A program made the translations under genes and the position numbers. Source: a virus. Taken from it: DNA of 30,489 nucleotides. Of the stretch, positions 12,101 through 26,462 are shown piece after piece. The DNA is taken from IMG/VR virus record IMGVR_UViG_3300014720_003420, positions 1 to 30,489 of that record. The stretch is one strand, 5' to 3'. The stretch's first letter is position 1. Every line of letters starts with the position of its first letter. A model generated the notes under the pieces. It did not search any database and had not been told where the DNA came from. It saw only the letters and a program-made list of their open reading frames with translations.

Positions 12101-15100
12101 TTTACTTCATGAATTTGCATTATCTCTTTTAGGAATAGATGTCCATGCTCAATCTCAAATCAAACGTCATAGAGACAGCTTAGACAACGACTTTAAAGAT
12201 ACAAGTGGAAATAAAGTAAAAGTTCCAAATGATGTAGAAAATTTTTCTAGAAGAGAATATTTTGATTATGTAGACAGAAATAAAATAGACTACAACAATT
12301 GGTGGAACCCAGCTCCAAGTATAACTGCTTTTGGAAACACTTTGTTAGATTTAGACAAAGAAACAGAAGAGATATTAGCAACACGTTTTAAAAGTTATTT
12401 TGAAACGCTTAAAAAAGAAGCTAGAGGTAACTTAACAGTTAGTGACCGAACAATTATTGAATCATTAACAAGTTTTTCCAAAGAAGTAGAATCTGCAATG
12501 AAGGAAATAACTAAACTTACAAACAAAGAATTGAGTGAAAGCGAACGACAAAGAATTAAAAAAGAATTAGAAGGCATAGATAAAGAAATACAAGCAAAAC
12601 AGGTTGAAAGAGCTAAAGCAGACAAAGACCATAAGACAGAAGAAGTAGCCAAAATAGACAATGACATAGCAAAATTAGAAAAACAAAAAAATGAAAAGTT
12701 AAGCCCAATTAAAGCAGGTTTAAATGCTTTAGAAAAAATGAAAAGCTCTATACAGTCTGCTGGAGAAATGTTAATAAAAGAAGTTTCTGATGAAAAAGTT
12801 AAAAAAACAATTAAAAAAGATATAGAAAGAATAACAGAAAATTTTGAAAAATTAAGCGGTTTATTTAAAGATTTAGTAAAAGGAGACTTTGACGAAAGTT
12901 ATAATAAAGCATTAAAAGCTTTTAATGCTTTTGAAAAAGCTTATGAAGATTTTAAAAATAATTTAGAAACAGAAATAAATGTGTTAACCGCTAGTTTATA
13001 CAAAGGTAATTACAATTCAGCAACAATAGCTAGAGGAGAAAAGATTTTAGAAATAAAACAAGCTGATGCAAATATTAAAGCTTTAAACCAAAAAATAGCA
13101 TTAGATATAAAAATGCTGGCTTTAACACAAGGTCATACAAGAGCAAATAGTGATGAAGAAATTAAAAGCAAAATAGAAGAGCTTAAACAAGGATTAATGG
13201 AAAACAGAAATGCTTTAACTGCAGAACAGCTTAAAAAGTTAAAACTTAGTAAAGAGCTTAAAGAAGAAATTGAAGAAAATAAAAAAGCGTTAGAAGATTA
13301 TCAGCTTGAGCAACTGATACAAATAAAACAAATGCAGATAGAGCTAGAGAAAGCTAAAGCAGAATTAGAAAATTTAAGATTAGACAATAAACTAAAAGTA
13401 TTATTAAAAGATATTAAAAGCTCAAACTTTAAAAGCTTTATGGAGTCGGCGTTTAATTTAATAAAGAGTATAAATGAAATTATAGCTAAAAAACTAGAAA
13501 ATGATAAAAAACAATTAGAAGATCAAAAAAGATTAAGAGAAGAAGCAGAAAAACGAAAACAGATAGAAGATCAAAAAATAAATGAAAAAGCGTTTGAAAA
13601 TTTGGTAATTCAATCAAATTTAGATTTAACTAACGCTTTTAATACTACTTTTAAAACATTAACAGAAGTAACCAAACAAGCTGGAAATGCAATAAAAGAC
13701 CTTACAGGATTAATAGAGGGAATATTTAACAGATTTAACATACAAATAAATAAATCTAACAATGAAATAAGCAAAACAAATGCAGCAGCTCAAAAAGTAA
13801 GTTTAAATATAGAACAAAGTGGATTAAGCTTATCTAAATTTAATAACAGGATAACAATTGCAAACAACTCATTAGGTAAAACAGTTAATGCGTTTCAGTA
13901 TATAAATAATATATTAGAGAAAATGCCGCAAACTCCTGTTGTTACAATTAATTATGGTAGCGGTGGCAATCAACCATCAAACCAGCTTCCTTTTTCTAAT
14001 ATTGGTACAACTACAACTTCAAGCGGTTCTAACGGTAATAATGCAACTAATGTAGCTACTGCGTCAAATAACAATAATGATGTAGCCAAAACTAATGTAA
14101 CTACTGTAGCTACTAACGGTAATAATGCAACTAATGTAGCTTATGCATCAAAACCAAACTTTACTAATCATCTGCAAGCAGCTTTAAATCTGTTTCCTAG
14201 TACAAAAGGTAGTGATAAAATTGCAGATAATCTAGGAGTGCAAAGAACAACACAAGTGGCTAAAGGCAACCCAGGAACAAATGTTGGTAAAGGAAAAAAC
14301 AGAGAGTTGTTACGCAGTAACAGTAACAAACCTGACCTTTTAAGAGAATTGCTTGGAAATGTATTCGGAGGAATAGGTGTAAGCACCAATGAAATTAAAT
14401 GGTTTCAAGGGCAAATGAATTTTAACTCCGAAGACGAATTTAATAGATTCGCAAATCCACTTATTTTAATAGATAAAATAAATAAAACAATAGAATCTGC
14501 TGAAAAAAATAAAGTTAATCTTGATCCCGAACTAGGAAAAGCGGCAGAATTTGTAATAGATAATTTATTACCTTATATTCCGCAAAAAGGAAGAGATTTT
14601 ATATCAAAAGCTATACAAGACAGAAGATCTAAATCTAAAATAAAGTTTAAATATAATCCTAATGACCAAAATGAAATAGAAACAATAACAAATATTGCAG
14701 AAAATTATTTAGTACCAAATAGTCTTCAATCACATATAGATCGTGTACAAGCTGTTAAAACTTATATGAATATTGTAGTACAAGAATTAACAGCTAAAGG
14801 CAGCCTTAAAGACAGCAACATACCGAGTCCAAATTTAAAAGAAAAAGCAAATTTTGCTTTACGTAATATAGATAAAATAGCTTCACCGGATTTGATAAAA
14901 AGAAACGCATTACAAGCCAATTATCAATTAATAAAAGACATAGTCGAGAGAGACCGACTTACTACAGATAGTGGAATGACAGCTCGCAGTCTTATAGAGC
15001 AAGAGAAGCTAAGAAATCCTGGAAACACTAATAACCAAAACCCTGTAAACCCTAGAAACCCTGTAAACCCTAGAAACCCTGTAAACCCTAGAAATTCTGT

Positions 15101-18100
15101 AAACCCTAGAAACCCTGTAAACCCTGTAAACCCTGTAAACCCTAGAAACCTTGTAAACCCTAGAAACCTTGTAAACCCTGGAAACACTAATAACCAAAAT
15201 CCTGTAAACCCTACAATCCCAGGAGCTAATACACGCAAAGCAATTCCTGTAACTACTACACCCATAACAACCCCTGTAGCTAATACACCCACAACAATCC
15301 CAGGAGCTACTACACCCACAACAATCCCAGGAGCTACTACACCCAAGGCAACCCCTGTAGTCCTTCCAGTTATACCCCCAATAGATTTTTCAGGTCTTTT
15401 CCCAAAACCTAATAATTCTAGACAAGGTGTATTAGGTATTCAAACGGTTAGCCAGGCTTCTAATGCATCTCGTCAAATGACATTTAATGTGGGAACAGTT
15501 TTAATCAATGCACAATTAGTTAAACTTGTAGCATCTGGCGGATTGCCTGTTGGTAATCAAGCTGTACAAGTTTCTAGGAATTCCAAACAATCAATTCCTT
15601 CTAAAACTTCTCCTCCAAATTCTTCTAAAACTCCTTCTATTGATTTGACAAATTCAGAGTCAATAAGAGAACTAAACGAAGTAAATAGACAAATAGAACA
15701 AGCAAAACTTGACTCATTAATACTAGACTTTGGAATACAATTTGATAATATAAGAAACACAAACCCGGGTTCAGAAAGAAATGAAGCTACAAAAGCTAGA
15801 ACCGCAGCACGTAATAGCCTTCTAAAACTTTCAGGAAATCTTACCAATAGAGAAGAAGCAACAATTACCAAAGCTGAAAGAGAAGCTGACATTAAACAAC
15901 AACAATCAACGTTTACAGATCAAATAAAAGAATTAGGAAAACAAATTGAAGGCTACAATAAGTTAATTACAGGAATAAACAATGCTATACAAGAAATTCA
16001 AAACTCTCCTCTTGACGATACAACAAAAAGCAGTTATATTAACAGACTTAAGCCGATTTTAGAAAAAGTTAGAAGCGGATTAGAAACAGCAACAACAGAT
16101 AAAGAAAAGATAGAAGAAGAGTACAAACTAGCAAAACCTTTAATTGATAAAGCACTAGGTGATTTACCAAATTTTCTAGAGACCGTACTAACTACGCTTA
16201 ATTTAGGTGATCAGTTACGTGCAACTGAAGCTCAAATTCAAGTATTTGAAACTAGAAAAGATAATCTTGAAAAAATTAAACAACAAATAAGAAATTTAAC
16301 AAAAGAAGAACAACTTGAATTAGACTCAATATTAACTGTAAATATTCCATTTTTAGAGAATATAAGAGAATATACTCAGTTAAGACTAGCATATTTACAG
16401 GCTCTTAAAGAAAATTCAACTGAAGCCAACAAATTAAAAGCAAGACTTGATCTATCAAGTAAAAGACTACAAGAATTGTATAATTTTAATATAGGGTCAA
16501 AAGAAATAAGTGAAGCAACAAAAGACATTGAACAACTAATTGCAGACAGCCCAAACACTGCTATAATAGAAGCAAAAAAAGGAAGAGTAAAAGAAGTATC
16601 AGGCATCAACTATGAAATAGGTGTTCTAGGATCTAATAAAGAAGTTTTGGAATTAGCTGGATTACCAATAGACTCAATAGAACAAAAATTAGTTGAATTA
16701 GGCGAAACATTAAAAATACTAGAAAACATTAAATTGAGTCCAGAGATGGTAGAACTCCTTAAAGGCAGGGTGTCTACTTTAAGTAAAAGAGCAGAAGATG
16801 AAAAAACACAAGCAAGAGAAAATACTATATCTGAAGCAACTATCCAATCGTTAGAGTTACAAGGATTAACTTCAGAATTTCAGCTAAATGCAATAAAGCG
16901 TGATAGACTTATACAAAATGCAACTTTTGACAGAGATAAAGCAAACGATGATAATGCTCTTAGACTTAAACTATTAAACGAACAAGCAATACATAACTAC
17001 GAAACTGCTATAAAAGCTTTTCAAGAAGCTAGAGACAATGAAATAGCAAAACTAAATACAACTGATGAGCCAATTAATCAAGCTGATAAAACTGACGAAA
17101 TTAGTAGAATTGATGATACTTATTCCACTCAAGAAAAACAAGCATCAGCCGTTAAAGACGCTGCAATTAAAACGGCACAAGAAGAACAAACAAAACAAGC
17201 TACTGAAATTAATCAAGATCATGCAAGAGCAATTGAAGCAGCTAATCTTGCGCACAAAGATTTTTTAGCAACATTAAAAGATAGTATTGTAGTTACAGCT
17301 AAACAAAATATTGGTAGCGAACTATCCACCTATGTAATGAATGATTTAGTAATGGGTGTAGATGCAGTAACTGGAGAAGCTAGAGACCTTAGTAATGAAT
17401 TAAAAGGATTAGAAAGAGTATTATACAATGTCACTAAAGCTATTCTAAACTCAATCATTCAATTAGCTACAAAAACAGTAGTTGATAGCGCTCTTAACTG
17501 GTTTGTTGGGCTATTTACACCAAAAGTAGGAGGCAAAGCATTAGGTGGTGTTATAACAAACTATGCAGAAGGTGGATTAGTACCATCTATAGACGCAGCA
17601 TTTACTAAAGAGCGTTCGTTAAACGGTGGTATACAACCTGTATTAGCAGTATTAACTCCAGGCGAACGAGTGTTAACAGTTAGTCAAAATAAAAGGTTTG
17701 AGGAATTACAATTAAATAAAGTATTAAACTACGCTAATGGCGGCATAGTGTCTCCAACAGAAAGACAATATCATCAAACTATAAATAACGAAAAACCTAA
17801 AAACACACCTAATATACCAACTACCATAGAATTAAATAGTAGTAAAGATGAATCTAATGTAGACTCAGTTCAATTGCGTAACGGAACACAAAATGATTTA
17901 GTAATGGATGTAGATGCAGTAACTGGAGAAGCTAGAGACCTTAGTAATGAATTAAAAACAGTAGTTGATAGCGCTCTTAACTCGTTAAACGCAGCATTTA
18001 CTAAAGAGCGTTCGTTAAACGGTGGTATGCAGCCTGTATTAGCAGTATTAACTCCAGGCGAACGAGTGTTAACAGTTAATCAAAATAAAAGGTTTGAGGA

Positions 18101-18548
18101 ATTACAATTAAATAAAGTATTAAACTACGCTAATGGCGGTATGGTATCTCCCATGGATAGCAAAGTATTAAACTACGCTAATGGCGGTATGGTATCTCCC
18201 ATGGATAGCAAAGTATTAAACTACGCTAATGGTGGTATGGTATCTCCCATGGATAGCAGAGTATTAGCTTATGCAAATGGCGGTATGGTATCTCCAGCAG
18301 AAAGACAATATCATCAAACTATGAATTACGTAAACGGTGGCTATGTAGCACCACCTATAAATAACGGAGAAGCTAATAACAGTCAAAAACCTGAAAATAC
18401 ATTTAATATACCAATTACCATAGAATCAAATAGTGGTAAAGATGAATCTAATATAGACCCAATTCAATTACGTAACGCAATACAAAGCGCTGTATTAACA
18501 GAAATCCAAAGACAGCAAAGACAAGGAGGAATTTTACCTAGAAAATAG
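171..18548 (+). CDS. Giant tail tape-measure protein (6125 aa)
   Basis: This is the tail-length ruler of the virion and probably also the protein ejected with the DNA. The N-terminus (LGELIVELKLDSVQF) is typical of tape measures. A classical tape-measure domain lies at about 3384-3554, with GKVSMEELRQQL and KFPPAMRIFAKALG. Four copies of an SPSK/SPSQ...G...EG..IG motif lie at about 2521, 2571, 2968 and 3074. Hydrophobic, membrane-like segments lie near 3604-3630, 3646-3675, 3816-3833 and 3854-3885. Charged coiled coil dominates residues 1-2150 and about 4050-4500. Proline/asparagine repeat linkers sit near 4620-4660 and 4957-5060. The C-terminus repeats LTPGERVLT and YANGGMVSP motifs. The reading frame is unbroken for 18.4 kb. 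Lambda gpH has 853 residues and Thermus P23-45-type phages about 5000, so this is exceptional. Start ATG 171 fits the family; only a weak AGGA lies 14 nt upstream. Confidence 0.97.
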   Translation: MTNLGELIVELKLDSVQFTADLNKFKADATKVAGDIEQKINNILSKTISIKVDDKSLTKLNEHLDKKKKHLDEVKKHYESNPIVVKVDNKESEKSLKNFNTKLEQELKKNKKYTIDYQSGKGLNDVTKIVKDAVTKGIQEAFTSVKAEINVSASRQSTNQVTSNTSSNAVSDKNSQYIVEELKVSNKLLNKLIDRQETLITKVQALRFDGSGGRTPVVTQETQQQNNVSVRSSSTKQVINQPVQPSPTPPQLPTQQIDVTQLNASVNNLINANANLGATISSIATAATGMGNEAAVANTQITQSAIKAKEISDELKVAALEALSITNHIGAAQTSSEIIKKNLSDASGYSDDIPNNLAIAATESEQVKNNFNESNKLVAAINQDFKDSRISVKAIEALFAGIVTSLGTVANDLNNVAGKVSSNTSGSNSTVEDIKKAIEQSLASAIIAANNNIEVAIKSSANQITGSKNLGDVVSELTKIIGIINSLDSSIKASKADPTKIDIDTTNLQTSLTGASEQLNNFKELVDNKFIHSTNVASNQLEELGNELQKVITKLKTEVTSPAETSKLPKSVETDLQQISNNCECEIKVVKSVETGTDKVAEQVKKSGENLEKGIKDLAENFKVELEDNVLGQFNAVATEINNFVTEAKDLQKKVSDINTGLDGNLNELNDNNENLKKTAADLRTKLNGIGSLIDDIVDEAKKHFNGQPISDEINEFANKIKKSTSYLEDNIKTIPNTLDVNIKAKMAQQAQELIEKISESTKKIDLDPVIKTVVEKAATSLNSFGDDSSKLFDSLTKSVEFNTKKIEQTFETFATKINQTIDASANEITASATKQQTNKLGNETTTPPESETQKQVNMSLSEFNSAVVATRNELLSILNGLNTESTSATKNIESLKDSLDKLTEETDRLETKFKDVANNKDIDKLFESIGKLNDEYDNLNPKVKENVNKQTDLIAKLNNIVDELTTINSLTKEGQQNKLKEIEDLKKTATELQTSGSGLNDAILNITEKVSTSTNTINALNAQNLTQVKAAEQIHQKLTQVLTKIDETADEAQKISNKFKKEANTPIALPEIDTSSLNKITAYLNSIANSIKIQSEKINDISSVLSSFNSEELKNNVTNIELAGKNIANAVPSIVTQIESVAAQIEDAGKVFTGKANTFNLDQLSSQLNNLKDVASNLGSELSGLKVVEMQQKIDSVETDVDSFNKSIQDSHTNLVEINHLINDVKNAVKNYEGIVQKSNSTAEEVITAQSKVVKSLDDLNAKYKLNETTIDNINNKHNELFNNISNLTSEIGKNENAIKAFSDNLHNVDFNSVVDGLKELSGGFEESGKTFFQNLTTKFNEAINVFTTKKETDTKSKNETPKQLPELIQLEENLNDPSLSDAIKEVIKKTIEKIEKDIEIDISESSIGEKIKEKLVNELDNLLSKIEPIKLSESQLKQYVEILENAASNFGANLKEIGTNHAEVMRNVSGELAEFSNKIKATTTELERFDAVVKNAVTKPPEPKEKAALEKATDSSDKLKESLEGLTVITNDVSRSVQNLGQKFTKLEEFENLKQSITGLDVETKKFSSQIKLANTYLEGLDFKAKQTESSKFKSIAESFESTLKALTSVADNLKQANTSFVAEVNVLKTSVAGIDVNTFNDKAKELASVVNGLKDKLNEINQQLLSGKDIGASLTKFNSELKEAQQQYKNLASLQSSINTEHAKLQTGIQGFINYLDNNKENIVAPLKEMVQTFKSDLAGLPDATQESVKESLTQLEARVTSLDTIFGNFSNKIESFTLDNIEENFEEVTEEIKRETKGVFDLIKQYINQQFPSKPKDEFISGLDQESFDRQRQGLEASLSSIVDAITTSGNNYANQIIEATVAAQKIKETNLEISQTNRELVTTTKNLVTELGNSAAEIKKATNDLVKAKQDELDAVLKANKATLDAATNKSKENVTYYDNVKQELNNAVVVAVSIKESVIKIKTQFDELVKETLNSKKKEITDDVKTLVETQKQELKDNQNQITKDVNSIVKNLEAFNTSLSSNNSNTTNLVKVNKTQVDTLAKISTEFESILNKYKTFSNQVDSQVKSLTNLPNFEEAGIAFQVKINEFKQASAKQIEDLQTALKGVIGRLDLSGTELANKISNVQINLDSTGNEIKKLGNVAEKASQNLERFVELKLGVKQQPELEPVYVTQQQPTSKASVHVTQQQPTSKASTPETPPTSKGLDPKKLNEPTFPLDKDVTSITSFEQPSVVDAKIVANNINEVQKEYQEKFVNKVWIPLLKILNTIYSETPFSDDDILEKTQKGEAFPPVNEKFDNAIIRQIKNLLNEYEKVLTDAGASNLESVTPKAREIAKEMGETLLNLAQKTAEEIREKIGEKIAFDLILANQDTNLEDNKELAKYAKDGDLAKEIKVLTDALYAIKNAAKEVGTYFRSLYKTTSGQTQGQFVGESVEIMNDVAKTKSYNAANNQLISEIQQTEKNIKKLIAESDKAAKNVADTGSETIEAKTKENLKKSYNLFYDFVNQIKRALQIKSPSQVAIYIGEMFGEGLSIGIEKRADKVIKTANEMAKDLVKTVKKQLGINSKSRIFFEIGIRLLEGFESGIQMKMPGVQNLINPLFHAILAQTPGVVGAEIGTAIIISLALSIQKGDSIISKAFRKIVNNILFVVDIMQNSLDVYSGPSGLFPNLAPAVHPGIGLTIYALKTTLQLLKEIGEEHKLNNKRLLPSLLYSAKNRFDKIRNDKSLNVAREGVEHVGNLVRGGEMVQYGAKSPIIAVINAAQSGATVILRSIRIIESMYKAYQDTVAKIQSNPSIDFSATFQNTLVDYLRSFNITKKDILQALASIGQVVPKIDSTGTGKIVSDPTVGGAAVGAAVAIEVMDMIKKAIIDKTKEKMAQGIDFKDAFKTSLEDIQSPEAITKILTNVADSLKPQIKHLTNAGEDIIDGLIKGILNRMGMVARVIYLTSKAIEDQIKENMGITSPSKVMIEVGLMITEGLAIGIKKGTNKVLNAIEFVGNAIKQKELPQLTDKETKQNINTDVTRRLKHIGKQTSQGFTQGLRSNSMAEETGEEVRKVIKKFRTILKIASPSQVTRQFGINSGEGYGIGFVEALNNSNKEIQNALKQIIQSLKTEFSAVGVSTGFSDDLQKVLREMDDIEKKQERIIELRNKGLITEKEARQELQRYNDELLKQSQLVNKIKRDAQKELDQTAAPGTTAYKLTTANVVNDDFANKELENQMMLERRQRRIKPVDIRNVDVPESIHKGDDNIRYAYDRSIELQKELKRQQKDPAIKQLKKDLERNRNLIIEEYKKNDITLREALERLNQQNENTIQEFYAAGGSPIDLTQDNIRRNSKTFGQNAQDLGEGIADVTEQAQAQANRFGDFTDVVRDFYFEAAQKLLDLVKAMEEIEPIQRRFLVAMNENKQKADRAFKLAQSTAEQNRIPIMSGLEGYSQMLEAAKGTRLEGADVQNLFEGISAALSSMSITGRDADLVFLAFTQMIARGKVSMEELRQQLSEKFPPAMRIFAKALGTTVSGLTETVSQGLVMSDNALSKVAKTLNEEYGNTARGAKGIGLALTELSNTGVAMLIKITESFSDLVIVVAQSLSAIGNLIKDNITIIAPIAAGVIALFSAALLAGIITIFNSTGLTTAILALSGKFVTTFASGIVTMAPVIALAIGEGLASAIGAKTITEMISNKIKEGVDGVMISFNTSGTLGFITNLLNPIALLINAVQFLVKVIKEIPKAVEKLRNDSGAIAGILNYLIRFIERVKVGIEALIGSITGLAQIFGLAAINVTIFKSIIVSSLTAIKVATLALGVVWNSVFGKGVVIVGIMLAVVAAISAIDNNLDEFKNQINNVLAYMGAAIYGFMLILKLVKKDIVGFIGLLAVIPTMMYLQGDFSSPALEAMKNLSKSMKDGLDRLKDAVNSFSKATNTSTTKVEQSVKGFELNILKFFNPNLQSFKSDTLVLQQRERLNKNLKDDIERKPDNLLHEFALSLLGIDVHAQSQIKRHRDSLDNDFKDTSGNKVKVPNDVENFSRREYFDYVDRNKIDYNNWWNPAPSITAFGNTLLDLDKETEEILATRFKSYFETLKKEARGNLTVSDRTIIESLTSFSKEVESAMKEITKLTNKELSESERQRIKKELEGIDKEIQAKQVERAKADKDHKTEEVAKIDNDIAKLEKQKNEKLSPIKAGLNALEKMKSSIQSAGEMLIKEVSDEKVKKTIKKDIERITENFEKLSGLFKDLVKGDFDESYNKALKAFNAFEKAYEDFKNNLETEINVLTASLYKGNYNSATIARGEKILEIKQADANIKALNQKIALDIKMLALTQGHTRANSDEEIKSKIEELKQGLMENRNALTAEQLKKLKLSKELKEEIEENKKALEDYQLEQLIQIKQMQIELEKAKAELENLRLDNKLKVLLKDIKSSNFKSFMESAFNLIKSINEIIAKKLENDKKQLEDQKRLREEAEKRKQIEDQKINEKAFENLVIQSNLDLTNAFNTTFKTLTEVTKQAGNAIKDLTGLIEGIFNRFNIQINKSNNEISKTNAAAQKVSLNIEQSGLSLSKFNNRITIANNSLGKTVNAFQYINNILEKMPQTPVVTINYGSGGNQPSNQLPFSNIGTTTTSSGSNGNNATNVATASNNNNDVAKTNVTTVATNGNNATNVAYASKPNFTNHLQAALNLFPSTKGSDKIADNLGVQRTTQVAKGNPGTNVGKGKNRELLRSNSNKPDLLRELLGNVFGGIGVSTNEIKWFQGQMNFNSEDEFNRFANPLILIDKINKTIESAEKNKVNLDPELGKAAEFVIDNLLPYIPQKGRDFISKAIQDRRSKSKIKFKYNPNDQNEIETITNIAENYLVPNSLQSHIDRVQAVKTYMNIVVQELTAKGSLKDSNIPSPNLKEKANFALRNIDKIASPDLIKRNALQANYQLIKDIVERDRLTTDSGMTARSLIEQEKLRNPGNTNNQNPVNPRNPVNPRNPVNPRNSVNPRNPVNPVNPVNPRNLVNPRNLVNPGNTNNQNPVNPTIPGANTRKAIPVTTTPITTPVANTPTTIPGATTPTTIPGATTPKATPVVLPVIPPIDFSGLFPKPNNSRQGVLGIQTVSQASNASRQMTFNVGTVLINAQLVKLVASGGLPVGNQAVQVSRNSKQSIPSKTSPPNSSKTPSIDLTNSESIRELNEVNRQIEQAKLDSLILDFGIQFDNIRNTNPGSERNEATKARTAARNSLLKLSGNLTNREEATITKAEREADIKQQQSTFTDQIKELGKQIEGYNKLITGINNAIQEIQNSPLDDTTKSSYINRLKPILEKVRSGLETATTDKEKIEEEYKLAKPLIDKALGDLPNFLETVLTTLNLGDQLRATEAQIQVFETRKDNLEKIKQQIRNLTKEEQLELDSILTVNIPFLENIREYTQLRLAYLQALKENSTEANKLKARLDLSSKRLQELYNFNIGSKEISEATKDIEQLIADSPNTAIIEAKKGRVKEVSGINYEIGVLGSNKEVLELAGLPIDSIEQKLVELGETLKILENIKLSPEMVELLKGRVSTLSKRAEDEKTQARENTISEATIQSLELQGLTSEFQLNAIKRDRLIQNATFDRDKANDDNALRLKLLNEQAIHNYETAIKAFQEARDNEIAKLNTTDEPINQADKTDEISRIDDTYSTQEKQASAVKDAAIKTAQEEQTKQATEINQDHARAIEAANLAHKDFLATLKDSIVVTAKQNIGSELSTYVMNDLVMGVDAVTGEARDLSNELKGLERVLYNVTKAILNSIIQLATKTVVDSALNWFVGLFTPKVGGKALGGVITNYAEGGLVPSIDAAFTKERSLNGGIQPVLAVLTPGERVLTVSQNKRFEELQLNKVLNYANGGIVSPTERQYHQTINNEKPKNTPNIPTTIELNSSKDESNVDSVQLRNGTQNDLVMDVDAVTGEARDLSNELKTVVDSALNSLNAAFTKERSLNGGMQPVLAVLTPGERVLTVNQNKRFEELQLNKVLNYANGGMVSPMDSKVLNYANGGMVSPMDSKVLNYANGGMVSPMDSRVLAYANGGMVSPAERQYHQTMNYVNGGYVAPPINNGEANNSQKPENTFNIPITIESNSGKDESNIDPIQLRNAIQSAVLTEIQRQQRQGGILPRK
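6693..6770 (+). repeat. 39-bp tandem duplication inside the tape-measure gene
   Basis: Two adjacent 39-bp units (6693-6731 and 6732-6770) differ at a single base and encode VYVTQQQPTSKAS and VHVTQQQPTSKAS. They start a proline/threonine-rich linker that separates the long N-terminal coiled-coil half from the region with the SPSK motifs. The near identity points to a recent slippage or duplication event. Confidence 0.95.
14029..14141 (+). repeat. 29-bp direct repeat in an Asn/Thr-rich linker of the tape measure
   Basis: The same 29 bp occur at 14029-14057 and 14113-14141, encoding the NGNNATNVA motif twice. The surrounding stretch (about 13960-14160) is rich in Asn, Thr, Ser and Gly and looks like a disordered linker after the central coiled coil. 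Confidence 0.9.
15039..15182 (+). repeat. Eight 18-bp units encoding NPVNPR-type hexapeptides
   Basis: Eight consecutive in-frame 18-bp units, consensus AACCCTGTAAACCCTAGA, encode the hexapeptide NPVNPR with variants (NSVNPR, NPVNPV, NLVNPR, NLVNPG). The block is flanked on each side by GNTNNQ, itself a duplicated segment. The units vary at few bases, so copy number is likely to change by slippage without breaking the frame. The encoded stretch should be an extended proline-rich linker within the tape measure. Confidence 0.95.
15285..15338 (+). repeat. Two exact 27-bp units encoding a TIPGATTPT-type repeat
   Basis: Two identical 27-bp units lie head to tail at 15285-15311 and 15312-15338, with a third partial copy after them. 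They continue the Pro/Thr-rich linker that begins with the NPVNPR block. Confidence 0.9.
17340..18490 (+). repeat. Tandem duplication of the C-terminal module of the tape measure
   Basis: A module beginning NDLVM.VDAVTGEARDLSNE (17340) runs through LTPGERVLT, KVLNYANGG, ERQYHQT and SKDESN..QLRN to about 17890. It then starts again at 17892 with the same order of blocks to about 18480. Many blocks are nearly identical at the DNA level (17597-17755 against 17991-18150). The second copy lacks two internal segments, including the piece encoding LERVLYNVTKAILNSIIQL, and has extra 48-bp units. This looks like a whole-module tandem duplication followed by internal deletion. Confidence 0.9.
18114..18305 (+). 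repeat. 48-bp tandem units encoding KVLNYANGGMVSPMDS
   Basis: Three almost identical 48-bp units (18114-18161, 18162-18209, 18210-18257) are followed by a diverged fourth (18258-18305). Each encodes KVLNYANGGMVSPMDS or a close variant. A single related unit occurs earlier, near 17715-17760. The YANGG motif is common at the C-termini of tape measures, where one copy usually suffices. Confidence 0.95.
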
Positions 18549-18577: not shown

Positions 18578-19237
18578 ATGAAAAGCTATATAGCTAAAAT
18601 CGAACCATCGCAACAACAAAACTCTCCTTATTTTGAAGTGGCAACGCAGGTAGCTATTGGACTTTTGGTAGATTTAATACCAGTCATAGCCTCCACCATC
18701 TTTGCCTGGCTATTTTTTAAATTTAAAAACCAGCTTTTTGTTATACTTTCTAAACTGGAAGCCATAACTCATTCCCATTTGCCAGAAATTGATGTAGAAG
18801 AAGAAGCTATTATACAAAATTATTTTAAAGAGTTAAGTCAAAACGGATTTAATCGTATAACTTTTTTTATGTTAGATAATTTTCATAAAAAAAATAAGTT
18901 TATTTACGCTAAAACATTTTATAGCTTTATTGATTATAGCACAGAAAAAGCAATCTTAGAAGAAAATAAATATAATTATTCTTTTGTCAGTTTAGAAATA
19001 AACAACTTAATAAAACAAGATAGAGTGTTAGCAATATATAATAATTACACTAAAGGATTTATAAACACTGCATGGTTAAAACATAGAAAAATTAAATCCT
19101 ATGCAATCTATTTAATTAATAAAAAATACACAGGATTTATTTTATTAGAAAAAACTCAATGTCATTTTACTTGCCCAGTAAATACTCAAAAAATCCAAGA
19201 AATACTACAAAAAATTGATGAAATTATAAACAACTAA
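18578..19237 (+). CDS. Single-pass membrane protein of unknown role, 219 aa
   Basis: A strong Shine-Dalgarno (AAGGAGGA, 18563-18570) fixes the start 29 nt after the tape-measure stop, so the two are probably co-transcribed. One hydrophobic helix (about residues 25-49) follows a short polar N-terminus; the remaining 170 residues are soluble. Their pattern of alternating strands and helices, ending in AIYLINKKYTGFILLEK, resembles a GAF-type fold, which is an inference from pattern only. No lysozyme, holin or spanin signature is seen. Its position after the tape measure could suit a role in DNA entry, lysis or exclusion, but none of these is shown. Its stop overlaps the opposing dCTP deaminase stop by 4 nt. 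Confidence 0.8.
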   Translation: MKSYIAKIEPSQQQNSPYFEVATQVAIGLLVDLIPVIASTIFAWLFFKFKNQLFVILSKLEAITHSHLPEIDVEEEAIIQNYFKELSQNGFNRITFFMLDNFHKKNKFIYAKTFYSFIDYSTEKAILEENKYNYSFVSLEINNLIKQDRVLAIYNNYTKGFINTAWLKHRKIKSYAIYLINKKYTGFILLEKTQCHFTCPVNTQKIQEILQKIDEIINN

Positions 19238-19827
19238 ACAACCGGTAATGTAATCTGCTCCAATTGATTTTGGTATTTACCTAGCCTATCCTGATAACTA
19301 GTTCTACACATATCACCTTCAAAAAACAACAACTGCGCCACCCCCTCATTTGCATATATACGACAATCTGCGCTAGACGAATTACTGAACTCTAACGTTA
19401 AATAACCAGACCAAGCAGCTTCAACAGGTGTTAAATTAGCTATTATACCAACCCTGGCATACGTGCTTTTGCCAATACATATTGCAGTAACATTTACAGG
19501 CATCACTATCTTCTCTAAAGACACACCTAATCCATAAGAATTAGCCGGAATAACAAAATAATCACCCCACTGGTCAGACTGTAAATCTACAACCTCTAAA
19601 CTTTTGTCATTAAAACTTTTAGGATTTATTACTAATGCAGGTATACGTTTAAATACCTTAAACTCTTTTGGTGACAGCCTAATGTCATAACCATAAGAAG
19701 ATACACCGTAACTAATACAACTTAATTCATCACTGCCCCTCTTATACCTACGCACAAGTGATGATTCATAAGGAGAAATCATGCCTCTACTACATTGCTG
19801 TAAAATCCATTTATCATTCTTAATCAT
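19234..19827 (-). CDS. dcd: dCTP deaminase
   Basis: Deaminates dCTP to dUTP, feeding dUMP and dTTP synthesis; in a phage this supplies thymidine nucleotides for an AT-rich genome. The 197-residue product has the family length. The signature GKSTYARVGI carries the conserved Ser and Arg, and WSGYLTLEFSN carries the Glu aligning with the catalytic E138 of E. coli Dcd. YGVSSYGYDIRLS near the N-terminus and YANEGVAQLLFFEGD near the end are also typical. The ATG at 19827 is chosen because MIKNDKWI matches family N-termini; a TTG at 19836 is the alternative, and a GGAG lies 12 nt before the ATG. Some bacterial dCTP deaminases act in anti-phage defence by nucleotide depletion, but the context here favours phage metabolism. 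Confidence 0.93.
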   Translation of the reverse strand: MIKNDKWILQQCSRGMISPYESSLVRRYKRGSDELSCISYGVSSYGYDIRLSPKEFKVFKRIPALVINPKSFNDKSLEVVDLQSDQWGDYFVIPANSYGLGVSLEKIVMPVNVTAICIGKSTYARVGIIANLTPVEAAWSGYLTLEFSNSSSADCRIYANEGVAQLLFFEGDMCRTSYQDRLGKYQNQLEQITLPVV

Positions 19828-19897
19828 TACCAGCAACTACTCCAATAACAAAAACACTGTACACAAAGATAACATAAAAAAATCTTTTATTCAACTC

Positions 19898-22001: not shown

Positions 22002-23441
22002 TTATTTGTTGATTAACTTAGTTGTTTTTTGGAATTTTTTAGACAATTGAATGTTAAATGGAATTAAATAAGTATTGAGTAATTCTCCTATAGAGTTATT
22101 AAACTTATTTAATTCTATAAATTCTTTAACATTATTAACTTCTGAGTTTAATAATGCTTGTTCCCATGCTTTAAATATAGGATTGTTTTTAACATTTTCC
22201 CATACTTTTTGAGTAACATAAATACTTTGTTTTTTAAGGTCTCTGTCAATGCCAGAGTAGTTAGTTAGTTTAGGCATTGGCAACCATTTTTCTTGAAAGC
22301 AATATGCTCTTTGTACTGGAGATTCTTGTCTAAGTTTTTCTAGCTCTTCTAAACTAATTGGAGGAATTGGCAATGCTTTACCCCATTGTCTTAATTGGTT
22401 GCTTTCTCCAACTAAAGTAATCCAAGGAATTTGAGAGGTTTGACTAAGATTTAACCCTACAGCACCTACATAAGGTGTTTGAGTGATTAACCATAGCTTT
22501 CTACCAGACACGTCACCTAATGAAGCAATTGAAATAATTAAACTACCAATTCTTGTGTATTTTTGTTCTTTAGAGTAATGCCCAAGTATTAATAATTCAT
22601 CAATAATTAATAATACTCTATTTCCGTTTATTTCCTGCTCTGTTGCAAAGGATTGATATTGGTTTAAACAGCTATCTAACCAAGTTATAACTTCTTCTGA
22701 TGTCATGTTTGCCACTTGATTTTTTAATATTAAATCTGCTGCACTCCAATATCCAGCTTCATTTTCATTGCCTTTTGGATCTATTACAAATACTTTTAAG
22801 AAAGGGTCAAATTGTTTTGCCTTTCTTAAAGCATTTGATATTAAAATTCCTTTTCCGCTACCGCCAACTCCTAATACAAATAAATTAGAAACTGGCGCAG
22901 CAATTTGGTCTAACAAATTAAATTCACTAACTTGTTGTTTTTGGTCTAATGTTGAATCAAAAAAAAACTCTTGAGTTTTTTGTTCGCTGTTTTGTTCAGC
23001 TGGTAATTCTATTTTTTTGAATTCTGAGCTAAACTTTCTTTCTATGTTTTTTTCTGGAGTTTCAGGTGGTAAAACCCTAGGTTTGATAGACCGGTAAAAC
23101 TCCCATGCTGCTTTTGAAAATGGTAAGTTTCTTCTAAACGCTTCCTCTATTTCCTCTTTAGTTTTTTGGTAACCAATTTCTCTTGAATATTCTTTAAAAT
23201 CATCTCCTTCTAAAGCGTGAGCTATGCATTCTCCTTGAATAATTGATTCATAGCTACGTCCACTAGATTTAGCATTTTTGACACAACGATAGAATACCAA
23301 AACAGCAATAGCTAATCCGACTACTGGAGTAGTGGCTGATGCCATTACAACAGCTGCTCCTAATCCAAAAATTATCTTATACTGTAAGTTTCCATTGTCA
23401 GCCCGCAATGCTTGCTTTTGATACTCTATCATTTTGTCCAT
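22002..23441 (-). CDS. Membrane-anchored HerA/FtsK-VirD4-like ATPase (479 aa)
   Basis: Probable inner-membrane motor. A hydrophobic hairpin (about 23-52) precedes a linker and a C-terminal P-loop domain, the layout of FtsK, VirD4/TraG and TcpA pumps. The P-loop is GVGGSGKG at 191-198, in which Gly replaces the usual Ser/Thr after the Lys. FVIDPKG (218-224) is characteristic of the HerA/FtsK superfamily; the Walker B is LLIIDE (277-282), and LITQTP (318-323) matches the sensor strand of these ATPases. The tail after residue 360 has no recognised domain. It is the last gene of a five-gene operon and begins directly after the stop of the polytopic membrane protein, with GAGG 11 nt upstream of the ATG. 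Substrate unknown; DNA translocation is the family expectation. No relaxase or VirB4 homologue is visible nearby. Confidence 0.75.
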   Translation of the reverse strand: MDKMIEYQKQALRADNGNLQYKIIFGLGAAVVMASATTPVVGLAIAVLVFYRCVKNAKSSGRSYESIIQGECIAHALEGDDFKEYSREIGYQKTKEEIEEAFRRNLPFSKAAWEFYRSIKPRVLPPETPEKNIERKFSSEFKKIELPAEQNSEQKTQEFFFDSTLDQKQQVSEFNLLDQIAAPVSNLFVLGVGGSGKGILISNALRKAKQFDPFLKVFVIDPKGNENEAGYWSAADLILKNQVANMTSEEVITWLDSCLNQYQSFATEQEINGNRVLLIIDELLILGHYSKEQKYTRIGSLIISIASLGDVSGRKLWLITQTPYVGAVGLNLSQTSQIPWITLVGESNQLRQWGKALPIPPISLEELEKLRQESPVQRAYCFQEKWLPMPKLTNYSGIDRDLKKQSIYVTQKVWENVKNNPIFKAWEQALLNSEVNNVKEFIELNKFNNSIGELLNTYLIPFNIQLSKKFQKTTKLINK

Positions 23442-24110
23442 TTAAATTAAACCTCTACTTTGTTTATACAAAAGAACCAATTTGTTGCTGTAAATTATTA
23501 AAAGAGCGATTATCTCGCATGCAAACAAAGTAATTATACTAAGTGCAAAATTTAATCCATTAATTACAGCATAATTTCCAGTTGCTATAGCAAATAAAAA
23601 ATCCGCTAAACCACCTTGAATTGGAGGGTATATGGTAATTACCAACATAAAATCAAATACGTAGGTAAAAATCTGAGCGTATTTAAGGTTTCTGATTACA
23701 GCTAAAGGAAGTCGGTTATAAATTTTTTTAGCTGCTTTCATGATTGGATCATCGTTATCATTGATGTCAAATTTGTTTTTACCACCCGAACGGATAATGG
23801 TTTCTAACAGCAAATCATCAGAAAAGATAACAATTGGTAGAGTTTCAATTATTTGAATAACAGCCCACGTGATAGCGCCCATTACCCAAATAGCTGTTTT
23901 ACCAATAAATCCTGCAATATCCTTAATTATAGGAACATTGGAAAAAACATTAATCCATAAAGTATCTTGCATTGTTGCAGATAAAGCAGCTATAACTCTT
24001 TCATAAGGAACTATATTAAGAAAGGCAAAATATATTCCTAACAAAATTAAAAGAAAATAAAGGTAATCTATCCAAATCCACTTGGATCTAACTGGCATTG
24101 TTTGTTTCAT
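23442..24110 (-). CDS. Polytopic membrane protein of the ATPase operon (222 aa)
   Basis: Not recognised. Hydrophobic segments lie at about 14-34, 66-92, 145-163, 165-183 and 184-207, giving four or five membrane helices. A polar loop of about 50 residues between helices 2 and 3 includes the acidic stretch DINDNDDP (115-122). It overlaps the preceding gene by an ATGA and abuts the ATPase gene, so the three should be made in fixed proportion. The likely role is a membrane partner or channel for the ATPase, inferred from operon position only. Confidence 0.75.
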   Translation of the reverse strand: MKQTMPVRSKWIWIDYLYFLLILLGIYFAFLNIVPYERVIAALSATMQDTLWINVFSNVPIIKDIAGFIGKTAIWVMGAITWAVIQIIETLPIVIFSDDLLLETIIRSGGKNKFDINDNDDPIMKAAKKIYNRLPLAVIRNLKYAQIFTYVFDFMLVITIYPPIQGGLADFLFAIATGNYAVINGLNFALSIITLFACEIIALLIIYSNKLVLLYKQSRGLI

Positions 24111-24574
24111 TTTGATGTTACTGGTTGGCTAAACATTCCGCCCCTAAAAGTTTTTAATCGAGACTCTATTACGCTTCTATTGTTAGTTACGGCTAAAGAC
24201 CCAATACTACCATCTCCTTGAATCACTGCTGTAGCTCCTTGAGAGTCACAAACAATAGTACCCTGTACCAAAGGTTTATTTGTGTGTCTATCGGTAGGTA
24301 TTTCTCCTACAGCTAAATTAGAGTAAAACAAATTAGGATGAGTTCCTTTTACTAATACTAAACAACCAGTTTTATAACGGTTATTAGCAACTTTTGCCTG
24401 TTGTTGAAGGCTTTTTTCTTCTTGGTTTAACAAATTAATAGTATTAGTAGATTGCAGGTTTTTAGTTTTAAGCTCATCAAATTGATTAAATGTTTTACCA
24501 ACATTACTTAAAGACCCAACTACTGCTAATCCAATAATTCCCATTATGACTGCTTCGACTTTATCAAATACCAT
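24107..24574 (-). CDS. Bitopic membrane protein with a coiled coil (155 aa)
   Basis: Not recognised by family. A single hydrophobic helix lies at about 8-22, followed by a Gln/Asn-rich coiled-coil stretch (30-65), then a Gly-rich beta domain with two cysteines (71 and 109). The short N-terminal anchor and folded C-terminal domain resemble the build of small accessory proteins of secretion and transfer machines, but no homologue can be named. It overlaps its upstream neighbour by 11 nt; AGGGG lies about 6 nt before the ATG. Confidence 0.75.
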   Translation of the reverse strand: MVFDKVEAVIMGIIGLAVVGSLSNVGKTFNQFDELKTKNLQSTNTINLLNQEEKSLQQQAKVANNRYKTGCLVLVKGTHPNLFYSNLAVGEIPTDRHTNKPLVQGTIVCDSQGATAVIQGDGSIGSLAVTNNRSVIESRLKTFRGGMFSQPVTSK

Positions 24575-25184
24575 ACTTTGCCCCTATATCAATTGTTTTG
24601 GTTCTGTTGTATTGTGTTGCAGAAATGCTATTTCTAACCTTTTGTAATTCAAATTCAATTAAATCAGCAAAAGCCTCTGCATCCAAATCTGGAACTCCTA
24701 GACTAGTCATAAATTTACGTTGTTTTTCTCCAGAATTTCCAAAAGTTTTAAGCCATTCATTGTCTTCTTGCTCCTGCTCTACAAAACTTTTGTTCAGTTG
24801 AGCAGCAGTTTGTTGATAACTTTGCACCGTTAAATCGTGAGCTAATTGCGCAAGATTTACTCCTTTTTGTACAGCTACACTTGCTAACAAAACAGTTACA
24901 CCTTGTGTTCCTAAAATTTCTGTAAATTCTTTAAACTGAGTAGCTTTGTTGTTACTTTGCGCTACTGACTCTATATTTTTGTTAGAGTCAATTGCTTTTA
25001 ATGCAATTCCATTTAAACTTTTAGCAGCTGTAAAAAACTCATCTAATTTTTCCGCAATATTATCCGGAAAGCTATCATTGTCAAAATCACAATTTCCATA
25101 TTTGTTGTGATACAAATTAATTGCCTGGTCTATTATTCCATTGTCTTCATTAAATAACTCGTGCAATTCATTTCGTTTATACAT
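24564..25184 (-). CDS. Soluble helical protein of the ATPase operon (206 aa)
   Basis: Not recognised. Mostly helical and acidic, with one mildly hydrophobic helix (VTVLLASVAVQKGVNLAQLA, about 96-115) that is too polar for a confident membrane span. AAGGAG 10 nt upstream supports the ATG at 25184. It overlaps the upstream HTH gene by 8 nt and the downstream membrane-protein gene by 11 nt, so translation is probably coupled through the operon. Confidence 0.75.
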   Translation of the reverse strand: MYKRNELHELFNEDNGIIDQAINLYHNKYGNCDFDNDSFPDNIAEKLDEFFTAAKSLNGIALKAIDSNKNIESVAQSNNKATQFKEFTEILGTQGVTVLLASVAVQKGVNLAQLAHDLTVQSYQQTAAQLNKSFVEQEQEDNEWLKTFGNSGEKQRKFMTSLGVPDLDAEAFADLIEFELQKVRNSISATQYNRTKTIDIGAKYGI

Positions 25185-25584
25185 ATTTCAACATCTCCTT
25201 AAATACACTTCGTCTTACATTTTTAGTGTTTTTTCGTAGTAATGATACTACAATTTTGTCACTACCCTTTTTAAATCCTTCGTATTCTTTTATGCAGGTT
25301 ATTAAAGCAATTAAGAATCGTTGGTAATGGTCAATGTTAGAGCTTCTGGGGTTATCTTGAAAATAATCATTATATAAACACGGTATTTGTTTAATAATGT
25401 TATGTTCCCAATTTCTGATAGTGTTTCTATCAATTTTTAGTAGCACTGCCCAGTGTTCTCTACTAGTAACAACATCATGCACAAGTAAATCAAAAAAAGT
25501 TGTGTTTTTTAATTTACACCATATATTGTCAATACATAAATTATGGTCTACATCAAAAGGCGAGTAATTCGCCTGCTCTGTCAT
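25177..25584 (-). CDS. Small HTH DNA-binding protein, first gene of the ATPase operon (135 aa)
   Basis: A helix-turn-helix is visible at about residues 43-62 (REHWAVLLKIDRNTIRNWEH), close to the form in which a recognition helix reads NTIRNWE. The remainder is basic and helical with no other domain. A near-perfect Shine-Dalgarno (AAAGGAGG) 5 nt before the ATG at 25584 makes this the start, rather than the longer frame from 25623. The protein is the natural candidate to bind the palindrome and repeats immediately upstream and regulate its own operon, though this is inference; a role in DNA recognition for the ATPase is an alternative. Confidence 0.75.
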   Translation of the reverse strand: MTEQANYSPFDVDHNLCIDNIWCKLKNTTFFDLLVHDVVTSREHWAVLLKIDRNTIRNWEHNIIKQIPCLYNDYFQDNPRSSNIDHYQRFLIALITCIKEYEGFKKGSDKIVVSLLRKNTKNVRRSVFKEMLKYV

Positions 25585-25596
25585 TAATCCTCCTTT

Positions 25597-25639
25597 TTCT
25601 ACAGCAATGCTAATTTTTAACATTCTACAGCATTGCTAA
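25597..25639. repeat. 17-bp direct repeat containing AGCANTGCT palindromes
   Basis: TTCTACAGCAWTGCTAA occurs at 25597-25613 and 25623-25639, 26 bp apart, with one mismatch. Each copy centres on the palindrome AGCAATGCT or AGCATTGCT. On the transcribed strand the two lie in the leader between the promoter and the ribosome site. Facing half sites could also form an AGCATT/AATGCT hairpin in RNA or DNA. This looks like a pair of operator sites or short iterons. Confidence 0.85.
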
Positions 25640-25652
25640 AATGCTTAACTAA

Positions 25653-25699
25653 TTAATAACTTAATTGATTAAGTGTTGTCAAGGGTTATTTAATTGATT
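25653..25699 (-). promoter_or_regulatory. Promoter of the ATPase operon with a 16-bp palindrome
   Basis: Read on the minus strand, TTGACA (25682-25677) is followed after 17 or 18 bp by TTATTA or TATTAA (25659-25653). The perfect palindrome ACTTAATTGATTAAGT (25659-25674) fills the spacer between -35 and -10. Its half sequence TTAATTGATT occurs again at 25690-25699, just upstream of the -35. The arrangement suggests repression by a dimeric DNA-binding protein. Confidence 0.7.
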
Positions 25700-25739: not shown

Positions 25740-26462
25740 CTAAGAATAAGTATTGAGTCCTGGAAATCCACCAAACGGTAACGTCTTAAATTGTCCAAAT
25801 CTTGTTTCACATGCTTTAAGTGTTTTAGCGCATATATCTTTAGCTGCGTCGTCAGTTGTTTTATTGTTTATGTCGTATTTTTGTGCTTCTAGTGGATATC
25901 CACATTCTCCACCGTGATATATCCAGGGACAGCTGCGCGACATTATTCTAGCCGGTAAAGTAATTCCGTCTGTATCGAAAGGTGTAGTTAGCTTAAATTT
26001 TACTGTTTGGTAATTTTCTTCTTGTAGTTGCTCAATTACGTATACCTGGAAAGGTAGCTCTTTTATGCTATCTCCAGCATTAGATTCTCCGTCTAAAAAT
26101 CGTTTTTGAGTAACACGACGCTTTACGTAAGTGCCTTCTAGTCTGTAATTATCGTTAATACGTGTTTCTCTAAGCCAACTAGTTAAAATACCACCAACGT
26201 TGCTTACGGTTATTGTTGGAGTTGGTACAGCACCTTGTCCTATTAGGTCAAACCCTTCTCCTTGTATACCTAACGCATAATACAAATTATTTTCAAAAGA
26301 TAGCCCAGGTATGCTATTATCTTCTTTAACAAAGTTACATATCCTAATAACTGTATTGTCATCCCATTTGTTAGTTCCGGGGTTGCTTGTATTCCAATAA
26401 AATTTATAGAACTCGTATAGCTCAACAAAGCTGTCTGGATTTAAACTAAGTAGATTAATCAT
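25740..26462 (-). CDS. Tail-tip protein, lambda gpL-like, probable Fe-S protein
   Basis: Homologue of the lambda minor tail protein L, a component of the tail tip that contacts K and J during assembly. The C-terminal signature is complete: CPWIYHGGECGY (Cys178, Cys187), then Cys211 and Cys218 before ETRFG, and the ending LPFGGFPG. The four cysteines match those that hold a 4Fe-4S cluster in lambda gpL. The 240-residue length is also close to lambda's 232. Its ATG overlaps the preceding gene by 8 nt. It is the last gene of the tail-tip operon; the promoter of the ATPase operon follows directly with no obvious terminator. Confidence 0.9.
   Translation of the reverse strand: MINLLSLNPDSFVELYEFYKFYWNTSNPGTNKWDDNTVIRICNFVKEDNSIPGLSFENNLYYALGIQGEGFDLIGQGAVPTPTITVSNVGGILTSWLRETRINDNYRLEGTYVKRRVTQKRFLDGESNAGDSIKELPFQVYVIEQLQEENYQTVKFKLTTPFDTDGITLPARIMSRSCPWIYHGGECGYPLEAQKYDINNKTTDDAAKDICAKTLKACETRFGQFKTLPFGGFPGLNTYS

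Follow-up and report, generated by a model that had tools for sequence, protein, structure and literature searches.

Plasmids of Streptomyces spread inside the mycelium through the TraB/Spd system, which is relaxase-free and relies on an FtsK-like membrane ATPase that pumps double-stranded DNA. Here we describe an operon in a virus record of 30,489 bases (IMGVR_UViG_3300014720_003420; "the window" denotes this whole stretch of DNA) from a phage of a filamentous cyanobacterium, in which five minus-strand open reading frames (ORFs) at 22002-25584 share one reading direction and have abutting or overlapping ends. On the basis of what was observed, namely the genes, their order, the fold class of the ATPase, its predicted membrane anchoring, purifying selection and distribution, it is well supported that the operon is a DNA-translocase cassette, so far undescribed, that mobile elements of filamentous cyanobacteria carry. 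In the ORF listing the genes are arranged as follows, with overlaps of 4, 11 and 8 bases where the ends are not abutting:

22002 to 23441, minus strand: ATPase, 479 amino acids (aa), the last gene of the operon
23442 to 24110, minus strand: polytopic membrane protein, 222 aa, four long helices
24107 to 24574, minus strand: bitopic protein, 155 aa, an N-terminal membrane helix followed by a soluble domain
24564 to 25184, minus strand: soluble helical protein, 206 aa, a small N-terminal domain of DNA-binding appearance and a helical body
25177 to 25584, minus strand: helix-turn-helix (HTH)-like protein, 135 aa, the first gene of the operon

By analogy, the cassette may be likened to TraB/Spd, the likeness being one of description: an FtsK-like membrane ATPase, small membrane partners and filamentous multicellular hosts. 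It differs in occurring also in phages and in hosts with Gram-negative-type envelopes, and clt-type recognition is a TraB feature. With FtsK and SpoIIIE the window ATPase shares a RecA motor fold and an N-terminal membrane anchor, but it has no PF01580 match, carries a GKG Walker A motif and has four additional operon partners. It resembles VirD4/TraG and TcpA as a membrane-anchored DNA-pump type with N-terminal helices before the motor, whereas it has no match to a type IV coupling protein (T4CP) profile, profile comparison is weak, and no relaxase or type IV secretion system (T4SS) genes were seen in the window. HerA, including SIR2-HerA and HerA-NurA, has the same motor fold; however, HerA is without the membrane hairpin, and profile comparison of the window ATPase family with a host HerA gave 0.3. 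An inovirus coat-cassette reading (bitopic protein, polytopic protein and pI-like ATPase), considered from gene order, was dropped because the membrane anchor lies at the N-terminus and because tailed phages and plasmids carry the cassette.

The original prediction had called the system undescribed, and this holds for the libraries and literature searched. None of the five operon proteins had a convincing match in Pfam, NCBIfam, PHROGs or PADLOC, and a literature search, with subscription papers outside it, found no paper describing the cassette. The words "FtsK" and "translocase" do not occur in the main-text portions of PMC6293099 and PMC4916379. The window record is possibly a fragment and some of its genes could not be named; among the nameable ones, no relaxase, VirB4, packaging or type IV secretion gene was seen, in agreement with the prediction that the first three would be missing.

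Conservation of the operon in prophages and plasmids

A search for the five-gene set in relatives found it in phages and plasmids of other cyanobacteria. Gene order was surveyed with one profile per gene at 95 ATPase loci, comprising 27 of window type, 43 of plasmid type and 25 without either membrane family; at 17 of these 25, the sequence available upstream of the ATPase is shorter than 2 kb. Only loci that have membrane genes of the window type and no less than 3.5 kb of sequence upstream of the ATPase were counted (n = 24, window included). All five genes lie on one strand in the window's order at 19 of these loci (17 of 22 distinct elements; L017/L019 and L018/L024 are elements present twice), and the other five keep at least the bitopic, polytopic and ATPase genes. 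Since gene order is conserved in relatives, the operon is not a chance arrangement. Ratios of non-synonymous to synonymous substitution (dN/dS) of 0.02-0.39 were obtained for all five genes in five locus pairs, indicating that all five are under purifying selection. Thus the ORFs, the conserved order and the dN/dS values all bear out the five-gene operon that had been predicted.

At the 43 plasmid-type loci, which hold a sister version of the cassette, the ATPase is accompanied by a positionally equivalent membrane protein and usually also by a bitopic protein. Homologues of the HTH-like and 206-aa proteins are present as well at 16 of the 35 plasmid-type loci with enough upstream DNA, giving the full five in order. 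A tblastn search with the window ATPase matched 18 plasmid records, all of Nostocales genera, and none of 50,697 phage records; the ATPases of loci L018 and L035 gave chance-level rows or none in phages. Twelve of the 18 plasmids are typed as mobilizable or conjugative, and three small ones as non-mobilizable. Plasmid loci lie near ParA, ParB, ParG or presumably actin-like genes. A profile search with the ATPase retrieved three virus contigs, one of them the window's near-twin L002, and 78 genome loci, all cyanobacterial, of which 75 are named as genera that we take to belong to the Nostocales. In a survey of the phylum covering 292 genomes, 18 gave a match with an E value no higher than 1e-3, and with the lytic-type profile (see below) two did. 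Ten of the 18 matched at 2.1e-6 or better, all in genomes of at least 5.0 Mb; the other eight (1e-4 to 1e-3, genomes of 1.7-2.2 Mb, a short stretch near Walker A) were treated as noise.

In Nostoc sp. NMS2 the cassette is part of a prophage that also carries tail genes, a terminase, an antirepressor, a sigma factor, an integrase and a tape-measure-like ORF. The copy of Calothrix PCC 7103 is found in a virus record of 92 kb that encodes a tail protein and has a tape-measure-like ORF of 3,168 aa. Because these two elements carry it, we conclude that the cassette has a regular place in temperate phages of Nostocales hosts. The earlier statement that the operon has no place in a standard tailed phage must therefore be abandoned: other prophages of Nostocales contain the same cassette, and lytic phages that infect filamentous cyanobacteria have a divergent form of it. 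Taken as a whole, the original interpretation is partly supported, and the underlying observation is confirmed and proved larger than the sequence alone had shown.

Two further features were seen at individual loci. A short ORF (~225-235 aa) matching the ATPase profile is located downstream of the main ATPase at L006:9098-9775, L022:7574-8251, L040:3754-4443 and L061:8969-9673, and may be a second motor-domain copy or a broken end. Annotated reverse transcriptase genes are found near plasmid ATPases (L012:4734-5897 and L011:9712-11392), the one in L012 directly upstream of the ATPase, where partner genes are expected.

Architecture and fold of the ATPase

An AlphaFold model of the ATPase, built with 39 aligned sequences, shows an N-terminal hairpin (helices 2-36 and 39-68), a helical region extending to about residue 119, a disordered linker, a confident RecA motor at about 175-400 and a helical tail. 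The C-terminal tail, inspected for an FtsK gamma winged-helix/KOPS domain, was modelled with low confidence. The motor carries the Walker A motif GVGGSGKG, a DPK motif and a Walker B DE, and GK-G, DPK and DE are invariant in all 39 aligned family members. A GK-G Walker A followed by a DPK motif is reminiscent of VirD4/TraG. The Walker A of local cyanobacterial T4CPs, however, is GKT or GKS rather than GKG, and that of host FtsK proteins is GKS, compared with GKG in the window ATPase family.

In a Foldseek comparison of the model with the PDB, the FtsK motor 6t8g was first (E 1e-4) and the TcpA coupling protein 6o1w second (1.7e-4), with VirB4 and EssC also among the matches. VIA-align placed R388 VirB4, STIV B204, HerA, EccC, FtsK and TcpA at Z 13.3-12.0 over ~170-210 residues, the HerA and SIR2-HerA/HerA-NurA class matches being at Z 12.9 and 12.7. 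Rho (12.2) and KaiC (11.5) follow, so that the FtsK-HerA class has a small lead over other RecA folds; TrwB/VirD4 crystal structures were not among the best 50 VIA-align rows, which excludes nothing. The model thus makes it clear that the ATPase is a predicted membrane-anchored motor of the FtsK-HerA fold class, while the family within that class is not settled by fold.

Sequence profiles place the ATPase in none of VirD4, FtsK, HerA or TcpA. Curated profiles PF02534, PF10412, PF01580 and PF01935 matched none of the ten cassette members scanned, and no terminase large-subunit profile matched the window ATPase. Hence, of the membrane-anchored HerA/FtsK-VirD4-like ATPase that had been predicted, the fold class and the modelled N-terminal hairpin stand, but an assignment to any of these families does not. 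Profile comparisons were uncalibrated single runs with shallow alignments, of which only the rank order is informative: the window ATPase family scored 88.5 (96.2 in reverse) against the combined N1, CL131 and Leptolyngbya phage family, 40 and 90 against the Nodularia pair, and 7 and 36 against the N1 family alone, compared with at most 46 for a TrwB-like pair, at most 41 for FtsK, at most 36 for HerA and 10-19 for host T4CPs.

Partner proteins and the upstream region

The polytopic and bitopic proteins were both as predicted. The 222-aa protein (20 relatives aligned) was modelled as four long helices with a mean predicted local distance difference test (pLDDT) score of 79.4, and comparison of this model with solved structures gave none that was convincing (best E 1.7; best Z 7.2, which is chance level for helical bundles). 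In the 155-aa protein a single membrane helix at the N-terminus is followed by a soluble part with an invariant GC pair and a GTxVCD-like motif. Neither membrane protein matched a packaging, holin or metabolic family in Pfam, PHROGs or NCBIfam, families that had been named as pointing away from a new system.

From their sequences we infer that the 206-aa and 135-aa soluble proteins probably bind DNA. The 206-aa protein had no match in Pfam, PHROGs or NCBIfam. The HTH label of the 135-aa protein is based on its sequence appearance and on a phage CL131 protein of 74 aa, itself HTH-like, that its family profile matches (E 1.7e-5), so the prediction of an HTH protein gained support from a relative but no recognition by Pfam. 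Sub-threshold library matches of the cassette proteins (FSIP1, AAA_16, Picorna_P3A and similar) were discarded as noise, and a PDB sequence search returned just spurious rows (beta-synthase, methyltransferase and similar).

The longest ORF of the HTH-like gene spans 25177-25623, but an internal ATG at 25584 directly follows AAAGGAGG. Because this sequence sits just before it, the ATG at 25584 is most likely a better start than that of the longest ORF, as the original prediction had it. The following elements lie upstream:

25589 to 25596, minus strand: putative ribosome-binding site AAAGGAGG, read from the sequence
25597 to 25613 and 25623 to 25639, minus strand: two 17-bp direct repeats, candidate operators directly upstream of the start of the HTH-like gene
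25654 to 25682, minus strand: promoter-like TTGACA, 17 bp, TTATTA, read by eye and absent from the promoter scan list

The direct repeats are 94% alike, spaced at 26 bp and share the core GCAWTGC; their score was 14, compared with a maximum of 10 in 30 shuffles, and locus L020 has the same core and the same 26-bp spacing. Judging from this arrangement, the paired repeats are likely to be operators of the operon. Repeats also occur upstream of the operon in many relatives of both the window and plasmid types, the motif counts having used patterns picked after viewing the sequences. Some of these repeats are particular to a clade: TGCAACA/TGTTGCA precedes the HTH gene at prophage-type loci L022, L025-L027, L032-L034 and L072, and a TTGAYA-type array with a ~12-bp period precedes it at plasmid-type loci L047, L048, L057, L058 and L064.

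Divergent cassettes in lytic phages and their hosts

When the ATPase model was compared with a library of predicted viral structures, 612 matches were obtained. One of the best three is named as Nodularia phage kac65v161, and the other two, of 641 and 525 aa, equal in length the ATPases of Aphanizomenon phage CL131 and Nostoc phage N1, from which we infer that they are these proteins. Ranks 4-6 are unnamed, and rank 7 is a giant-virus packaging ATPase (6e-6). A membrane segment is present at the N-terminus of each lytic-phage ATPase, whose gene is the last of a small cassette; the cassettes also hold bitopic, soluble and small polytopic proteins (gene products in order, lengths in aa):

Phage A-1(L): 194, 94 (bitopic), 150, 64, 91 (polytopic), 530 (ATPase)
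Phage CL131: 187, 120 (bitopic), 145, 167 and 99 (polytopic), 641 (ATPase)
Leptolyngbya phage Lbo402-yong5: 141, 171, 131 (bitopic), 150, 91 (polytopic), 493 (ATPase)
Planktothrix phage PaV-LD: 167, 143, 269, 475 (ATPase)
Nodularia phage: 180 (two helices), 94, 712 (ATPase)

As in the window, the cassettes of A-1(L), N1, Elbi, CL131, Lbo402-yong5, PaV-LD and kac65v161 end with an anchored FtsK-HerA-like ATPase preceded by soluble, bitopic and polytopic proteins, and their hosts are filamentous. They differ from it in having other polytopic proteins and GKS or GKT Walker A motifs, and in CL131 a nuclease-like tail. A similar order was seen in the five virus contigs read for it (five of seven virus loci), and a shorter version occurs at Nostoc NMS2 locus L192. 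Between CL131 and the Leptolyngbya phage, the bitopic and the soluble partners each match at ~2e-6. The Leptolyngbya phage ATPase is annotated as "DNA translocase coupling protein". The ATPases of CL131 and PaV-LD score below the cut-off against PF01935 (HerA), at E 6.7e-4 and 5e-3. The CL131 ATPase (gp108, L185:6001-7923) has a C-terminal PD-(D/E)XK nuclease-like domain (PDDEXK_9, E 1.5e-4), and CL131-type ATPases are present on ten large Nostoc and Halotia plasmids at 47.6-49.5% identity. Plasmids of Nostoc UHCC 0302 and MS1 match the nuclease-like tail alone.

Using the N1, CL131 and Nodularia phage ATPases as tblastn queries, 7, 2 and 9 records were matched, that is, 18 of 50,697 phage records. 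Without exception these records are of phages that bear the name of Nostoc, Anabaena, Dolichospermum, Nodularia, Aphanizomenon or Leptolyngbya, genera that we take all to be filamentous. In addition, Planktothrix phage PaV-LD, picked as a test record, matches the lytic-type profile (E 4.8e-11). A cassette-type translocase was found in five of the seven lineages of filamentous-cyanobacteria phages looked at, and on many Nostocales plasmids. The part of PMC6293099 drawn on here describes the phages that infect filamentous cyanobacteria as mutually distant and with little synteny, and a shared cassette is therefore more notable.

Possible function of the cassette

Since the cassette and its distant cousins occur in phages and plasmids of filamentous cyanobacteria, we tentatively propose, as the likeliest reading, that it carries the DNA of the element across the membrane, perhaps between neighbouring cells of a filament and without a relaxase. 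In this proposal a ring of the ATPase would sit at the inner membrane and pump double-stranded DNA, and the polytopic and bitopic proteins would form a membrane platform or pore for it. The HTH protein, and perhaps the 206-aa protein too, would control the operon from the upstream repeats, and these proteins may deliver the element's own DNA to the pump. The DNA would then be handed to the next cell in the filament with neither a relaxase nor a full T4SS; if double-stranded DNA is pumped, as with TraB, no relaxase would be needed. Such passage would be a reason for plasmids, temperate phages and lytic phages all to keep the cassette. The more specific claim, that this is a dedicated relaxase-free machine moving double-stranded DNA along the filament, with one version in temperate phages and plasmids and separate versions in lytic lineages, we regard as somewhat doubtful. 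Infection by CL131 is reported, in the part of PMC7466765 drawn on here, to suggest that less nitrogen is transported from heterocytes to vegetative cells. This would fit a phage acting at septa, as it would many other explanations.

Several observations weigh against cell-to-cell transfer. No profile match was obtained for A-4L and Pf-WMP3, two small podoviruses that infect filamentous hosts, and the cassette is therefore not required in them. Among the test records chosen beforehand, one of three from filamentous hosts and none of three from unicellular hosts (S-PM2, LMM01 and Mic1) matched, and the profiles are insensitive, A9 having missed the Nodularia protein and A6 the Leptolyngbya one; because each profile missed a known positive, none of the five absences is firm, and absence from the three unicellular-host phages is weak evidence. 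The restriction to Nostocales could simply be the host range of the elements, and three of the 78 genome loci are in metagenome-assembled genomes named Pseudanabaenaceae or Synechococcales, names from which host morphology is not inferable. The bitopic and polytopic partners of the window and of the lytic type are alike in kind and position but not demonstrably homologous. Comparison of plasmid-type with phage-type profiles likewise failed to demonstrate homology (bitopic 1.0, polytopic 12.5), and for that reason none is claimed. Upstream repeats were not seen near the lytic cassettes, except for a 3-copy 9-mer in A-1, and no septal or channel protein family was matched by the cassette proteins.

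A role in partition or septum clearing is unlikely in our judgement. The pump would in this case move plasmid or prophage DNA from the closing septum or into the daughters, as FtsK/SpoIIIE does, and the HTH protein would bind centromere-like repeats. Consistent with this are the repeats that precede the operon in the window and in many relatives, the ParA, ParB, ParG or presumed actin-like genes near plasmid loci and the position of FtsK among the closest folds, but lytic phages, which should have no need of partition, carry a cassette too, and ParA or ParB is encoded separately on some plasmids and in the NMS2 prophage. Equally improbable is superinfection exclusion or defence, in which a membrane-bound HerA-like ATPase would act on incoming DNA, alone or with a nuclease. 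Plasmids and prophages would both benefit from such a function, HerA and SIR2-HerA are among the fold matches, and the CL131 relative has its C-terminal nuclease-like domain. The window ATPase, however, is without a nuclease domain, and in PADLOC none of the five window proteins was matched, the five plasmid-type proteins giving two weak local matches (mad8, E 0.0012; oMTase, E 0.054). Moreover, we know of no HerA defence layout with a conserved multi-gene order and two membrane proteins.

The ATPase might also be a VirD4-like coupling protein on loan, feeding element DNA to a T4SS or pilus machine encoded elsewhere in ordinary mobilisation, a reading that we consider decidedly unlikely. The cassette carries membrane proteins of its own, three small plasmids bearing it are typed as non-mobilizable, and local T4CPs have GKT or GKS motifs and compare weakly by profile (10); speaking for a loan are the VirD4/TraG-like GK-G and DPK motifs, the closeness of TcpA in fold, the 12 of 18 plasmids typed as mobilizable or conjugative and the coupling-protein annotation of the Leptolyngbya phage relative. 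Very improbable is a role at the inner membrane in phage genome entry or virion assembly, such as drawing in the final portion of the injected DNA: the operon adjoins tail genes in the window and in the NMS2 prophage, and the STIV B204 packaging ATPase fits the fold, yet the cassette is common among plasmids, and a terminase of its own is encoded in the NMS2 prophage.

The cassette unites proteins that are scattered as "hypothetical" or "FtsK-like" in phages and plasmids, and ties them to chain-forming hosts. If transfer along the filament is true, an infection or a plasmid could travel inside the filament without leaving it, a route of spread specific to bacterial multicellularity, and a direct test is possible in the model systems of phages A-1(L) and N1 on Anabaena and Nostoc. 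Even if the function were partition or exclusion, a membrane DNA translocase this widespread would be worth naming.

Other features of the window

The operon is flanked by phage tail genes on one side and by plus-strand genes on the other. The adjoining tail genes encode a minor tail protein L (25740-26462, E 4.3e-37), a JAB-like protein and a Phage-tail_3 protein (E 1.9e-20). A near-identical virus contig, L002 (IMGVR 3300013132_005079), starts at the base where the window ends (30489), inside a tail gene, and this junction may be a shared assembly break or a genome end.

The plus strand at 171-18548, opposite to that of the tail-tip genes, is occupied by one ORF of 6,125 aa, pieces of which match the tape-measure-like ORFs of the NMS2 (1,533 aa) and Calothrix (3,168 aa) prophages. 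By its look we take it to be a tape-measure protein, and to our knowledge it would rank among the longest. A dCTP deaminase (PF22769, E 2.3e-21) is encoded at 19237-19836 on the minus strand, and phage CL131 is reported, in the part of PMC6293099 drawn on here, to have an intein-containing dCTP deaminase.

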